The notes below the pieces were generated by a model, which had not been told where the DNA came from, ran no database searches, and saw only the letters and a program-made list of their open reading frames with translations. A program made the translations under genes and the position numbers. 6,207 bases of DNA from a bacterium (GTDB lineage: Bacteria > AUK180). The stretch is taken from assembly GCA_030622125.1 (NCBI GenBank), contig JAUXGM010000133.1, forward strand, positions 1 to 6,207, read 5' to 3'. Positions 396-6,207 of this stretch are shown piece after piece (within the stretch, counting starts at the first letter, position 1; each line of letters begins with the position of its first letter).

Positions 396-422
396 TGTTG
401 TTGAGGTATGTCCCAAGAGGTT
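389..422 (-). terminator. hairpin at the 3' end of the large gene, possible weak terminator
   Basis: AACCTCTTG (389-397) and CAAGAGGTT (414-422) form a perfect 9-bp inverted repeat around a 16-nt loop. In the minus-strand transcript the stem begins inside the TAA stop codon (421-423) of the large gene. The position is right for a terminator or an RNA-stabilising 3' hairpin. The sequence after it is G/T-mixed (GGAGGTTGG) and lacks the U-run of an intrinsic terminator, so termination here would be weak or need a factor. No better terminator is visible before the next gene. Confidence 0.35.
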
Positions 423-3400
423 ATTGCCAGCCAATTATTACATTTGCGACTGCCCTTGGCTCAGGCGGAAGAGTATGTACATTTTTTTCGTATTCATGAT
501 TATACGGTGAAATATTCAATGCCTTATTATTTACTACAAGTGTACTGCTTCCACCGGGGTCAAATCCCATAGCGGTAATTATTCCTTTTGATAAAAGTAT
601 TTCCGCCATATCATTATGTGTAGCACCAACCGATTCCCTTATTCTACCGTTCACTGTCAAAACAGTAAGGTTTCCATCCTTATCTAGTCCGACTGCTATT
701 TTGGGTCCGCGCATATCTAAAAAATCAAGTCGGGATGCCTGTATCTTGATGGAGTTTTCTGTTTTCCAGCCCTCTATCTCCATATTTATACATACCTTAC
801 CATCATTTACGAGCATAGGACCGGCTTCAAGTGCATATTCAACATCTCTCCAGAAATGAAGTTTGAAAATAACCTCTTTTTCTATCCTATCCCAGCTTTT
901 TGGACATAGATTTTCCGGAAATGAGAAAGTTAGTCCCACGGGCAAAATCTTGGCATTCTCACCTTTTTTAGTATGTATTATCTCCTTAATAATATTACCT
1001 GATAAACGATAAATAACTCTACCATCACCTTTAATATATTCATCGGAATACATAAGGTCATAAAAGCAAGGTTTGTCTGAGGGTACAGAAAGATTATAAT
1101 TATCTCCTGTAAGAATAATTTCCTTATTTGAGTCAATTATAGTAATGCCTTCTGAACAGTTTATACGCTTTATTTTCAAAATGCCGTCAGAAAAAATACC
1201 AAAAGCGGCTTTGTTAAACAGTGGAGGTGATAAGACTTTCTTCTTTGAGATAACCATTCCAAGTGGAGAACCGATATATGATTCTGAAATACCGAGTTTA
1301 CCAATAAGTTCAGCATTTAATATATAACCACCATTCCATGCAATTTTAGGTCGTTTTCCTGTCTTTTTATGAAAAATATCACAAAACCTTAGAACAGTCA
1401 TAGTTTTATTATCGTCACAATCCATAATACCAAACTCCCATTTCTTTCTTCCATCTTTTATTGAAACCTTTGCCATAACACCTGACCATGGCAATCCATC
1501 ATTATAAACCCCCATGATATGTGATGTTGAAATATCGCTTTTTTTATCCTTATCTGAGACAAGAGATTTTAATACTTTCATTACAGGTGAACCATTTGTC
1601 TCTGCATCTTGTTTAAGAATTTCAAGTAATTTTTTTTCACTATATTTCCTTGCGAGTTTCTTGAAAACTGAACTTTTCAATGCGTTACTGAAATCTTTAC
1701 AGTTCTGTACGGGAGTTGGGTAGGAAAGACAACTTCTCAATCCGGCAGGAACCCACTGCAAGTAACCGCTCCCAATAGGGATTCCCATTATCTTTGATGC
1801 TAATATTTTTTTTACTTTTCCAATATGAAATGCCTCAATATCTACAATATCCGTCATCATTACAGAATGGTCTCCACTTGCAATAATAAACCCATTTCTT
1901 TCTTTTACATCCTTAAGAAATTGTAATGCTTCATTTCCAAGTTGTTCAAAATCGACTCCTACTGTTACCTGATTACTATTAATTATTTTACACATTCCAT
2001 ATTCAAATAGAAGTTTGAGTTCTGATTTTGTAGAACTTGAAATATAACCCCTTAATGCATCAGCAGTAATTGATAATCCGATGGGAATATTATGTTTGAT
2101 AATATAGATCGGTGCAATGTCTTTGGCAGATTCAAGATGTTTTGCTGTAAGTTCTTCTTCTATTTTTAATCCAAGACGGTTGCGCAAGGGCTGAAGAACA
2201 AAGAATTCCATTTCATAATTTATATAATTGCCTGGAAATAATGCTATTGGAACATTCTCAGCAAGTCTCCTCTGCAATCTTTTTCTATGATCTATAACAA
2301 GTTCGGAACTATTTGTAAGCTGAAATATTGCATGGTCAAAATCAACTAATAGATCGACTTGCTTTCTAAAATCCATATACGCTGGCGGTGATACAATTTT
2401 ATTAAAAAGAATAGTAATAACACCGGTAAGTTCTTGAAATGTCAGTTCCCTATATGGATAATAATTTTTATTTCTATGTCTGTAATCCAGAGAATAGTCA
2501 ACCCTGATAGCAATCTCTCCCTTTCTATATAGAAATAAATTATCCACTGCATTATAGAATTTGTGTATTTTTTTTAAAGGAAGCGGTGTGGGATCGGGAT
2601 TGTATTTGACAAGATTGGTTGCAAATTCCATTGCCATACCGCGGAACTGCTGTTCTTCCACTCTGAAATAACTCGGATCTATTAGCGACTTGAGAAATAT
2701 CATAAATCTCATCTTTCCATATCCGGGGAGGTACTGACGGTTCTTTGTATTTAGTATATATTCAAGGTCTTTATTCTTATTTTCAGTAATCTGATTATGT
2801 TGATGAAAAGCCCATATTGCTAATTTCATATTATCTGAATTATTACAAAGTTGAAGAAATAACTTATATAACATAAGTTTAATACTTTTTTCCATTGCAT
2901 CAAGGGTATAGCGGCTCTCAACTACTTTTTTATTATGAACTGCTTCCATCATATAATCCTGTGGATAAAGTACATGGTTTACAACTTTATTTATCACCTC
3001 TTCTCTGATGTCATCATTAATAAACTCAATTACTTTAAACCTATCTTCAGATGGAAGATGTTCACCAATTACATAAGAATAGACATGCTCGGGATAATAT
3101 CTCCGCGTAAATATTGGTATTCCGCACGCAGATGCTTCTAAAATAGGCAGTCCGCGTCCTTCTGTTTCACTTGGCAGCAGAACAAGTGATGCAATGTTAT
3201 AAAGTTCTGTAATTGTGAGTGGTTCTTTATACCTCTGTTTGAATGATGCTTTATCAAATTCACTGAATAGAAATCCAAGAAATATCCTTTTTCTATAACT
3301 GGAATCTATTTCGGATAACATTTCGTTAAATAAATAGAGCAACTTTTCAGCATAATTCACATGACCCACCGCAATTGGTCCTGTTATTAGCAGTGTCAAT

Positions 3401-4590
3401 TTCAATTTTTTATTATTATCAAACAACTTTGAAAATACCTTATTTGCAAATAATTTCTTTATTAGGATAAAATTTACTTCTATTTTCTTTCGTGATATTA
3501 TTCTGGTAGGTTGTAAAAAAATAAAATTATTATCTATAAATTCCTTTAATCCTAATGTATTAGAACCACCTATAAAAATAGGCGATGGATTATCTTTTGA
3601 TATCAATTTTTTTGAAATTGCTCTATCTACTGTAATAGGAATAATATGCTTATTCCCTTTATTGAAAATATCAAATAATTGTTTAAATGCCTCTATCTTT
3701 TTTCTCCTACCGATATCTTCATAAATTTCCGTGTCTATTACTGTTCCTATCTCTGTTACATTGGCGGGATTATGTCCGTATATTTCAATAAGTTTTTGCG
3801 ATTGAGCTTTATTGATATTAACTTGTAACCAGGAGCGCGATTCCCAGGCATAAAGAACTTCAATCAAAGAAAAAACTTCACCAATATGTGAATTATGGAA
3901 AAAATGGTCTCTTGGTCCGGGTTTTATTTTTTTTGTTTTTAAATCAATCTTTCTGTTCCCGCTTTCCCAGTAAAAATCGTGATTATTGTTTATTACGGGA
4001 ATACCCATAAACTCAGAAATAAATACTGTTGCAAGTGCAAGAGATACATTTCCCGGATTTGAACAGATATTAATCAAAAATAGGAGTCTTATATCATTCT
4101 CTTCAATATATCTACCAAGTTTCTCTGTAATGGTTAGAACATCATCACGGAAATTTAGTATCAGCCTATTATAAGATTTACTTCCGCGCTCAAGGTCCTT
4201 GAGAAAAAAATCTTTGTAGTATTTCCAATGATCGAACCCGACAATTTCCGGTATCTCATACCTTTTATAAGATGAAGCTATAATGTTTTCACCTATATTA
4301 TTATAAAATTTTCCACTTATGAAATGTATAGATATATCTTTAATAATTCTCTGTAAAGCCTTTGCATATTTCCCAATTTCAAAAGTTACACCGTCAACTG
4401 AATAATTAAAAGTTAGAAATGCAATTCCTCTGGAAATTTGTTCTTTGAATTTATCAAACTCATCAATATTAAATGTATCTGTTGGCGAAATATCTCTATT
4501 TTCTCTTATCCTATCAATATGGAAACCCAGGTCGAACCAGGTTTCTATCTTTTCGGATTTAAGTGCCGACATCATCTCTTCTATATTCAT
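421..4590 (-). CDS. three-part protein: GT4-like glycosyltransferase, unassigned middle region, phosphodiester glycosidase (NAGPA-like) domain
   Basis: This 1389-residue protein has no visible signal peptide or membrane segment and is predicted cytoplasmic. After an acidic lead-in (1-55), residues 58-575 form a GT-B glycosyltransferase. The N-terminal half has DGVTFE (66-71) and HDFYWESG (204-211). The C-terminal half has PTRIISRKK (361-369) and an E-x7-E motif in ETEGRGLPILE (E477, E485). Residues 600-1020 match nothing I know. Residues 1022-1388 resemble the phosphodiester glycosidase family of human NAGPA, which cleaves sugar-1-phosphate diesters: WNGGY (1085-1089), EAGPMLV (1255-1261), the strand pair AVGLDKDGNLTVLTVNGR (1299-1316), GFDPGGSS (1342-1349) and EPRAVANV (1377-1384). 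The usual signature is DGGGS(S); here one Gly is Pro. The ATG overlaps the upstream stop codon as ATGA, with only a weak GAAG before it, so coupled translation is likely. Family calls are confident; donor, acceptor and the combined role are unknown. Confidence 0.85.
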   Translation of the reverse strand: MNIEEMMSALKSEKIETWFDLGFHIDRIRENRDISPTDTFNIDEFDKFKEQISRGIAFLTFNYSVDGVTFEIGKYAKALQRIIKDISIHFISGKFYNNIGENIIASSYKRYEIPEIVGFDHWKYYKDFFLKDLERGSKSYNRLILNFRDDVLTITEKLGRYIEENDIRLLFLINICSNPGNVSLALATVFISEFMGIPVINNNHDFYWESGNRKIDLKTKKIKPGPRDHFFHNSHIGEVFSLIEVLYAWESRSWLQVNINKAQSQKLIEIYGHNPANVTEIGTVIDTEIYEDIGRRKKIEAFKQLFDIFNKGNKHIIPITVDRAISKKLISKDNPSPIFIGGSNTLGLKEFIDNNFIFLQPTRIISRKKIEVNFILIKKLFANKVFSKLFDNNKKLKLTLLITGPIAVGHVNYAEKLLYLFNEMLSEIDSSYRKRIFLGFLFSEFDKASFKQRYKEPLTITELYNIASLVLLPSETEGRGLPILEASACGIPIFTRRYYPEHVYSYVIGEHLPSEDRFKVIEFINDDIREEVINKVVNHVLYPQDYMMEAVHNKKVVESRYTLDAMEKSIKLMLYKLFLQLCNNSDNMKLAIWAFHQHNQITENKNKDLEYILNTKNRQYLPGYGKMRFMIFLKSLIDPSYFRVEEQQFRGMAMEFATNLVKYNPDPTPLPLKKIHKFYNAVDNLFLYRKGEIAIRVDYSLDYRHRNKNYYPYRELTFQELTGVITILFNKIVSPPAYMDFRKQVDLLVDFDHAIFQLTNSSELVIDHRKRLQRRLAENVPIALFPGNYINYEMEFFVLQPLRNRLGLKIEEELTAKHLESAKDIAPIYIIKHNIPIGLSITADALRGYISSSTKSELKLLFEYGMCKIINSNQVTVGVDFEQLGNEALQFLKDVKERNGFIIASGDHSVMMTDIVDIEAFHIGKVKKILASKIMGIPIGSGYLQWVPAGLRSCLSYPTPVQNCKDFSNALKSSVFKKLARKYSEKKLLEILKQDAETNGSPVMKVLKSLVSDKDKKSDISTSHIMGVYNDGLPWSGVMAKVSIKDGRKKWEFGIMDCDDNKTMTVLRFCDIFHKKTGKRPKIAWNGGYILNAELIGKLGISESYIGSPLGMVISKKKVLSPPLFNKAAFGIFSDGILKIKRINCSEGITIIDSNKEIILTGDNYNLSVPSDKPCFYDLMYSDEYIKGDGRVIYRLSGNIIKEIIHTKKGENAKILPVGLTFSFPENLCPKSWDRIEKEVIFKLHFWRDVEYALEAGPMLVNDGKVCINMEIEGWKTENSIKIQASRLDFLDMRGPKIAVGLDKDGNLTVLTVNGRIRESVGATHNDMAEILLSKGIITAMGFDPGGSSTLVVNNKALNISPYNHEYEKNVHTLPPEPRAVANVIIGWQ

Positions 4591-5921
4591 AATTCTTCAT
4601 CCACTTTGTGCCTTTGCATTTTTGGGATAACTATTTTTATAGTTTCATCAACAAACAATTCAGTTAATTTTTCTTCCAATACTTCAAAGGAAAAATACTT
4701 TTTACCCAATTCAAAATTATATTCGGTAATTTCCTTTCTTAATTTATCATTATATATTATCTCACAAATCTCACTTATTGCTTCATCTGTTAAGATATTA
4801 TCTTCAATCATCACCGTTTTAAAACCTTTAGAACCTATATCAGTCCAAAAAACCGGTTTGTAATTGTTTACAAAGACAGGACATTTTGCTAATACCGCTT
4901 CAATAAATGCATTTCCAAATCCTTCATATCTGCTAAAATATGTACATGCTCTTGCGGATGCGTAAGCATCAGATAGAGAATATATCTTTTTCCCTATAGA
5001 AGATTTCTCCCTTTTACTAAGTATCCTGTTACGAGAAAAAAATACTCTGTCATTGAGTCCCTTATCCTTTATAAGTTGTACAAGTTCCTTATAATAACCG
5101 AATCTTTCATCATCGGCATAACTTCCGGTAATTACCAGTTTAACTTTCTTATCTTTAATCCGTTCAATAAGTTCTATTGCGGTCTCAATCCCTTTTCGTC
5201 TTACAATTCTTGTGGCTTGAAAAATAGGAATATCGTCTTTTTTCAATCCAATATCATCAAGCATACACCTATTATATCCATCTATTTCCGCATAACGCTT
5301 ATTAAAATCCATTACATTTGGAACAAGAAGCGATTCAAGACCGAATTTTTCCTTTAATATATTTTTTGAATAGGTATTTATTACTGCATGTTTGACATTC
5401 GGGGAAATAAGCGGAAATGTACCATGAACAAGATCATTTATTTCTTTAAATGGTGATTCATACCTATCTCCCCTTTCCCAGAAAAAATCATGATCATGAC
5501 ACACTACCTTAATATTTGTATTTTTAACAATCTTTTTTATACCCATTCCCATAGAGAGATGAGCGGGTAACGCAGAAGCATTTTCAGAAAGTATTACATC
5601 AATTCTATTGGAAATAATCCATTTAAAAATATGAACTGCTATTTTATTGGAAGCATATTCAAGTTGCTCAAGAAGTTCATCAAGATCTTCTAATCTCGGA
5701 AAGAAAAATGCTCTCTTTTGTTCCCATTCGCATTCAGGTGAAAAGAAAGAAAGCATTTGACCGAAGGTTTCATTTTCGGGTTCTACAATGTTTCTGGTAT
5801 ATTGCCCCGATAAGATAAATACCTTGTGTCCCATTTTTTTTAAAACTTCGATCCATTTTTCAGTCTCAAGTGCAACTCCATCCACATCGCCGATTCTGCC
5901 TATTATAACACCAATATTCAT
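4587..5921 (-). CDS. GT4-type glycosyltransferase
   Basis: This 444-residue GT-B glycosyltransferase transfers a sugar, probably from an NDP-sugar, to an unknown acceptor in the cytoplasm. The N-terminal Rossmann half starts at MNIGVIIGRIGDVDGVALE and has the GH-VFILSG strand typical of GT4 proteins. HDHDFFWERG lies at 142-151 and PNVMDF at 201-206. The C-terminal donor-binding half has ATRIVRRKGIE (236-246), a KLVITGS strand (261-267) and the E-x7-E motif in EGFGNAFIE (E333, E341). Length is normal for the family. The DGV-LE-W and HDHDFFWER motifs recall the GT4 group that includes mannosylglucosylglycerate-type synthases, but this is from memory and not enough to name a substrate. ATG 5921 is chosen because a perfect AGGAGG (5928-5933) sits 6 nt before it. 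A frame extension to TTG 5999 has no ribosome site. It shares the fold and motifs of the next gene's N-terminal domain. Confidence 0.88.
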   Translation of the reverse strand: MNIGVIIGRIGDVDGVALETEKWIEVLKKMGHKVFILSGQYTRNIVEPENETFGQMLSFFSPECEWEQKRAFFFPRLEDLDELLEQLEYASNKIAVHIFKWIISNRIDVILSENASALPAHLSMGMGIKKIVKNTNIKVVCHDHDFFWERGDRYESPFKEINDLVHGTFPLISPNVKHAVINTYSKNILKEKFGLESLLVPNVMDFNKRYAEIDGYNRCMLDDIGLKKDDIPIFQATRIVRRKGIETAIELIERIKDKKVKLVITGSYADDERFGYYKELVQLIKDKGLNDRVFFSRNRILSKREKSSIGKKIYSLSDAYASARACTYFSRYEGFGNAFIEAVLAKCPVFVNNYKPVFWTDIGSKGFKTVMIEDNILTDEAISEICEIIYNDKLRKEITEYNFELGKKYFSFEVLEEKLTELFVDETIKIVIPKMQRHKVDEEL

Positions 5922-5933: not shown

Positions 5934-6003
5934 AAACGGTATAGTTTCCGGGAAGATCAAATTCAAAATACATTTTATAAATTTCTTCGTACAACTCAAA
6001 CAT
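5932..6003 (-). CDS. possible 23-codon leader peptide in the 5' untranslated region
   Basis: An ATG at 6003 opens a frame of 23 residues (starting MFELYEEIYKMYFEF, ending NYTV) that stops at TAG 5932-5934, inside the Shine-Dalgarno site of the glycosyltransferase gene. It is unusually rich in aromatic residues (seven Phe/Tyr) and acidic residues. A frame ending exactly on a ribosome site could couple or tune translation of the next gene. Against this, I see no ribosome binding site before its ATG, and a 23-codon frame can arise by chance. It is listed as a candidate only. Confidence 0.2.
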   Translation of the reverse strand: MFELYEEIYKMYFEFDLPGNYTV

Positions 6004-6042
6004 TTTTTCGGTCAATAATTAGTATCTTTTTAACTCATTTTG

Positions 6043-6071
6043 ATTATACTTTTTTTTGTCGTAAAAATCAA
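6043..6071 (-). promoter_or_regulatory. sigma70-like promoter of the glycosyltransferase operon
   Basis: On the minus strand TTGATT (6066-6071) is followed after exactly 17 nt by TATAAT (6043-6048). The spacer contains a run of eight A. The predicted transcription start is about 6036, giving a leader of about 115 nt before the ATG at 5921. It is the only good promoter seen upstream of the operon, and none is needed before the overlapping second gene. Confidence 0.65.
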
Positions 6072-6111
6072 ATTTCCGTTTTGCATAGCGAAAAATGAAT
6101 CCGGGACACAT

Positions 6112-6150
6112 AAAAAAGGTTAAAAGGTTCAAAAGTTCAAAAGTTCAAGG
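6112..6150 (+). repeat. 8-9-bp tandem repeat, unit AAAAGTTC
   Basis: Two perfect copies (6131-6138, 6139-6146) are preceded by AAAAGGTTC (6122-6130) and a further degenerate unit AAAAAAGGTT (6112-6121). It is non-coding and lies upstream of the operon promoter. Confidence 0.55.
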
Positions 6151-6157
6151 AGTAATC

Positions 6158-6187
6158 GTACTAAGTACTAAGTTTTTCGTACTGAGT
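6158..6187 (+). repeat. heptanucleotide tandem repeat, unit GTACTAA
   Basis: Four 7-bp units run in phase: GTACTAA (6158-6164), GTACTAA (6165-6171), the diverged GTTTTTC (6172-6178) and GTACTGA (6179-6185), followed by GT. The unit contains the self-complementary GTAC, so 6158-6168 is also a palindrome (GTACT-A-AGTAC). Just right of it, AGAAAT (6191-6196) and ATTTCT (6200-6205) form a small inverted repeat. No gene is seen between 6004 and the right edge. Confidence 0.55.
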
Positions 6188-6207
6188 TTAAGAAATTCCA
6201 TTTCTAT

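Follow-up and report, generated by a model that had tools for sequence, protein, structure and literature searches.

The 6,207-nucleotide stretch analyzed here (the window; contig JAUXGM010000133.1 of assembly GCA_030622125.1, from a bacterium of the AUK180 lineage) is an entire contig of a fragmented metagenome-assembled genome, and its minus strand carries two genes (Table 1). The downstream gene, referred to here as the fusion, encodes a GT4-family glycosyltransferase (GT), a middle region and a phosphodiester glycosidase domain of the NAGPA family on one chain. The upstream gene, the partner, encodes a second GT4 enzyme, and its TGA stop codon overlaps the ATG of the fusion by four bases (ATGA). 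A longer TTG start for the partner is possible at position 5999; its homologues begin at the internal ATG. A sequence-only reading of this DNA had reported GT4 and NAGPA on a single 1389-residue chain, and both domains prove real by Pfam, with their extents redrawn from the first 575 and last 370 residues to those in Table 1. That reading treated the fusion alone; the gene stands, and what was overlooked is the middle region of about 450 residues and the second GT4 that accompanies it.

Table 1. Features of the window, with positions counted from its first nucleotide.
Feature	Residues	Positions	Strand	Basis
Fusion gene (GT4, unassigned middle region, NAGPA)	1389	421–4590	minus	Open reading frame with ATG start
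GT4 (predicted GT-B type) glycosyltransferase part	~1–590	2821–4590	minus	Pfam Glycos_transf_1, NF041101, signature residues
Unassigned middle region	~591–1036	1483–2820	minus	Lies between GT and NAGPA parts; no library match
NAGPA (phosphodiester glycosidase) domain	~1037–1389	424–1482	minus	PF09992, alignment to mammalian NAGPA
Partner gene, GT4 related to mannosylglucosylglycerate synthase	444	4587–5921	minus	NF041101 match, co-occurrence

The GT part is assigned to GT4 by a Glycos_transf_1 match above the gathering score (E = 1.1e-7, 32 bits against a cut-off of 26.4), covering residues 457–499 only, and by an E-x7-E donor motif (E477-x7-E485) with an upstream Arg/Lys pair, R363 and K368. 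These residues, together with H204, are identical in all 31 homologue rows that have letters there. The Pfam model matches 31 of 32 homologues, the exception being a row whose contig begins within the gene, so that most of the GT part is missing, and the GT half of 28 of the 32 is also matched by NF041101 (best E = 1.5e-17), the model for the GT4 enzyme mannosylglucosylglycerate synthase (MggS) of Petrotoga. We note that genome G012, from a phylum in which four genomes were searched, encodes a stand-alone 594-residue relative of the fusion GT half (locus L006, 557–3251; 33–34% identity) without middle or NAGPA regions, followed by another, stp2-like GT4; this type of GT thus exists outside the fusion too. 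A role in anti-phage defense was considered and rejected, as PADLOC gave no match and the Pfam ‘GT4-conflict’ model scored 17 bits, below its cut-off of 26, on a generic GT4 motif only.

The assignment of the C-terminal part to PF09992, which the earlier reading had put forward for checking, is borne out by a match at residues 1233–1384 (E = 2.5e-19, 70.5 bits against a cut-off of 25), and the family is found in all 32 homologues. The domain is taken to begin at about residue 1037, ahead of the Pfam match, because of an invariant WNGGYILN at about 1085 and a weak alignment to mammalian NAGPA at about 1106–1141. Its motifs are WNGGYILN, RGPKIAVG, GRIRESVGATH and GFDPGGSSTLV; WNGGYILN, RGPKIA, GRIRES, GATH and DPGGS vary little or not at all across the 32 rows, and the core motifs NGG, RxP..A[VI]G and D.GGS.T are invariant. 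The part aligns with the solved mammalian enzymes of the same family (PDB 6pku, 6pki and 6pkg; best E = 5e-9), with which it shares NGG and D-x-GGS-x-T, and, like the bacterial forms, it has an RxP...A[VI]G motif; the bacterial DUF2233/NAGPA proteins (3ohg; Slr0280, 5h3k) are homologous to it. It departs from mammalian NAGPA in having DPGGSST rather than DGGGSAT, and in an invariant K1297 where the mammalian proteins have arginine and separate bacterial NAGPAs vary (e.g. arginine in L007, leucine in L008). The signature residues of both parts are intact, and the chain is predicted to be both a phosphodiester glycosidase and a GT4 enzyme. Ratios of nonsynonymous to synonymous substitution rates between the window and a relative, L024, are 0.10 for the NAGPA part and 0.11 for the middle region, and purifying selection acts across the chain.

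The earlier reading had allowed that an assembly error or frameshift could have joined two genes, and the window, being the whole of a short contig from a fragmented genome, might seem to invite this explanation. However, full-length homologues of 1382–1432 residues, colinear with the window protein, are present in many independent genomes. Two other members of the window's family carry one at 73% identity, one of them on a 271-kb contig; in a third member a contig break splits the gene at residues 494/503 into pieces 81% and 79% identical to the window protein; and another full-length homologue lies on a 970-kb contig. A chance reading frame or chimeric join is thereby excluded, and we discount an artifact almost entirely. 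Moreover, the tree of the GT part and that of the remaining chain agree, with a distance correlation of 0.94, and the parts of the fusion have thus been inherited as one unit.

The cellular location of the fused NAGPA domain is predicted to be cytoplasmic, because none of the complete fusion members tested has a hydrophobic N-terminus (the highest 19-residue mean within the first 40 residues is 1.07), unlike L008 and L009, two separate NAGPA proteins of the class to which the window belongs, which have signal-like starts with means of 2.18 and 2.28 and lack the GT and middle regions. These stand-alone proteins agree with the expectation of the earlier reading that bacterial NAGPAs are usually separate. 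The human enzyme is a Golgi protein, and the fusion differs from mammalian NAGPA both in its predicted location and in being joined to a GT4.

The middle region is about 446 residues long and contains well-conserved stretches (LKSLIDPSYFRVEEQ, RxDxSxxYRHRNK, MTDIVDIxxFHIGK and VPAGLRxxLxYPTPxQ) and aspartate, arginine and glutamate residues that are invariant across homologues, which suggests that it binds a ligand or is catalytic. Profile searches of Pfam, NCBIfam and PDB sequences gave no significant match, and in the genomes searched the region is seen solely within the fusion architecture. It does not appear to be a diverged copy of either flanking part or the product of an internal duplication, since all profile-profile probabilities are at most 0.2%. 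Structure prediction assigned no fold to it (mean predicted local distance difference test score, pLDDT, of 37), and prediction of residues 560–1389 likewise gave no usable model (mean pLDDT of 34), in both cases from 5–6 alignment rows. One could imagine that the middle region is an unrecognized sugar-1-phosphotransferase, such that the fusion would phosphorylate the GT4-built glycan in two steps, a sugar-1-phosphate being transferred and the covering sugar then taken off by the NAGPA domain. All that specifically points to this is that a large conserved region adjoins a NAGPA domain, and we regard it as highly improbable. If it were true, the fusion would be a one-protein bacterial counterpart of lysosomal mannose-6-phosphate tagging, which employs a phosphotransferase and an uncovering enzyme.

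Carriers of the fusion include 26 of 393 Bacteroidales and 7 of 40 Calditrichota genomes, in addition to the window's family. A query with just the middle region matches 25 and 7 of these genomes, respectively, the remaining Bacteroidales carrier (G099) having the two ends of the gene on separate contigs, and also matches two more in a set of approximately 380 genomes, most of them belonging to other families of the domain. All matches fall within open frames of some 1385–1441 codons or within frames cut by a contig end. Outside the window's family, identities are mostly 46–54% over the whole length, and 40% for the most distant member. The architecture is therefore conserved in at least three bacterial lineages. 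In the fusion tree, two Calditrichota members fall inside the Bacteroidales group, which indicates that the fusion has moved horizontally. No relatives were found among viral contigs and plasmids; a phylum-wide Bacteroidota sample gave no match in 296 genomes, a result of little weight, since none of the genomes sampled was known to match the query.

The partner gene accompanies the fusion closely. Its product matches NF041101 end to end over residues 1–421 (E = 7.7e-67, 225.9 bits), the GT half of the fusion being the more distant relative, but falls far below the curated equivalog cut-off of 640 bits and so is not filed as MggS; MggS, as described, is also not fused to NAGPA. At a threshold of E = 1e-60, 25 of the 26 Bacteroidales carriers have the partner, and in the 26th (G524) a contig end cuts it off after the first 131 residues; of the other 367 genomes in the set of 393, none matches at this threshold (Fisher p ~3e-41, ignoring the relatedness of genomes). 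In the window's family a single member, G003, is without the fusion, and it has no partner either. Among the Calditrichota, close partners (at least 60% identity) occur only in carriers. No partner is seen in carrier G111, where the fusion contig ends at the 5′ end of the gene, the partner's usual place. Eleven non-carriers have only a relative at 32–36% identity, and a tree places the partners, the fused GTs and the MggS-like proteins of non-carrier Calditrichota in a clade each. In the two of these non-carriers that were examined, G125 (L104, 211–2775) and G100 (L106, 236–2736), the partner relative (242–245 bits, also below the MggS cut-off) is directly upstream of a different GT4 of 410–418 residues starting ILHYSCPPVVGGVEE or similar, and these two genes may form another, distinct two-GT module that stands in for the fusion system there.

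There is considerable variation in the arrangement of the two genes. The ATGA overlap is found in the window and in G002, and the partner overlaps or is adjacent upstream, on the same strand, in the window's family, the Calditrichota and a few Bacteroidales. In many other Bacteroidales it lies on the opposite strand, about 1.1 kb downstream, and others show no linkage of the two genes within the flanks read. In genome G629 (L142, 7196–9897) the partner is present in two tandem copies, upstream of the fusion and on the same strand. The retention of both genes where their order has changed speaks for a functional link. Rather than a single bifunctional enzyme, the unit has the look of a two-gene system, and the co-occurrence, seen in at least three bacterial lineages, points to an undescribed two-gene pathway.

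An alternative in which the NAGPA domain serves the GT half alone would have it control the donor pool or proofread, by hydrolyzing a nucleotide sugar or a wrongly made product. Nucleotide sugars are sugar-1-phosphodiesters, the domain appears to be cytoplasmic, and the evolution of the NAGPA part has followed that of the GT part (the correlation of 0.94 noted above); however, a futile donor hydrolase would be costly, and this alternative leaves unexplained both the middle region and the close association with one specific second GT4, so that we consider it unlikely.

Following the suggestion of the earlier reading that proteins with the same domain order be sought and their neighborhoods inspected, we find that the partner is the only neighbor that recurs across lineages. 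Genes beside the fusion in Bacteroidales are housekeeping genes (nadA, ruvB, rpiB and a hemN-like gene) that reflect order-level synteny and are not beside it in other lineages, and they were rejected as members of the system. In two relatives of the window's family a sodium:solute symporter gene closely follows the fusion on the same strand (L022, 11789–13288; L023, 11514–13016), but not at L024. The non-coding ends of the window itself (1–420 and 6000–6207) contain short tandem repeats (TATTCCCT, AACCTCC and AAAAGTTC), which may be a site of assembly break.

These neighborhoods also bear on a possible role in synthesis of envelope glycans or lipid-linked oligosaccharides, with carrier-linked GT4 steps at the inner face of the membrane and the NAGPA domain trimming a phosphodiester decoration. 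GT4 enzymes are common in envelope pathways and the GT4 proteins here give weak matches to exopolysaccharide GT4 models, but no polymerase, flippase or other envelope gene recurs nearby, no N-terminal membrane segment was found in the fusion, and the best family relations are with small-molecule GT4s. We are slightly more doubtful of this than of donor control.

The reading we tentatively prefer, held at somewhat less than even confidence, is that the partner and the fusion form a soluble, cytoplasmic glycan pathway with two GT4 steps and removal of a sugar by NAGPA. The partner and the GT half of the fusion would each add one sugar, in succession, to a small and probably acidic acceptor, yielding a small glycoside. 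The NAGPA half of the same chain would hydrolyze a sugar-1-phosphodiester on an intermediate and so expose a phosphate or hydroxyl needed in the next step, and the middle region may bind the intermediate or pass it from one active site to the other, or be a further enzyme. MggS, BshA and MshA, the GT4 relatives with known substrates, glycosylate small, mostly acidic, soluble acceptors, and for this reason we propose that both GT4s do likewise; both are related to NF041101, whose substrate is a small acid glycoside. What the data show directly is the architecture and its conservation, the intact signature residues, the purifying selection, the lack of an N-terminal signal segment and the tight co-occurrence. 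The order of the steps, the substrates, the link between the active sites, the sharing of one product by both catalytic domains and the nature of that product as a small soluble glycoside, possibly an osmolyte, are what we infer from these relationships.

Several observations weigh against this pathway. First, the substrate assignments derive from distant relatives, the partner scoring well under the MggS cut-off. Secondly, the fusion and partner are unlinked or on opposite strands in several genomes. Thirdly, the other neighbors give no pathway clue, and the predicted models of the middle region are unusable. Canonical mannosylglucosylglycerate synthesis is rejected: besides the partner's score, none of 33 carriers has a match over the cut-off to glucosyl-3-phosphoglycerate synthase (GpgS, NF010496), the source of the usual acceptor precursor, whereas 1 of 14 well-known genomes, run as a control, does. 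In favor of the proposed pathway, the carriers thus show no sign of the usual route to the MggS acceptor, and a different enzyme must supply it. The chain could instead combine synthesis with breakdown, the GT making a glycoside and NAGPA degrading it in the turnover of a storage compound or osmolyte. A transferase is indeed fused to a hydrolase with signature residues kept in both, although NAGPA cleaves phosphodiesters rather than ordinary glycosides, such that the GT product would need a sugar-1-phosphate link; we think this improbable.

The two-gene system is built from known kinds of enzyme, GT4 and PF09992, as judged from its sequences. Where NAGPA has been reported in multi-domain bacterial proteins, these are extracellular, with TelC, ligand-binding or calcineurin-like domains and not GT4 (PMC12419801; PMC11488536). 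The Bacillota surface proteins among them resemble the fusion in placing NAGPA inside a large multi-enzyme chain, but are extracellular, have TelC and ligand-binding domains and are without GT4 (PMC12419801). The sequence-only reading knew of no described system with this architecture, and we likewise found no description of the GT4-middle-NAGPA order in the open-access papers searched, which is weak evidence of novelty as most subscription journals were not covered.

The fusion and its partner thus appear to constitute a conserved two-gene glycan system, apparently moved horizontally, that includes a region of 450 residues matching no library, and in which a phosphodiester glycosidase that appears to be cytoplasmic sits on one chain with a glycosyltransferase. 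The co-occurring partner makes the pathway testable by simple deletion and metabolite analysis and, if the proposed pathway is correct, the system would show how an uncovering-type enzyme is put to use within bacterial cells.

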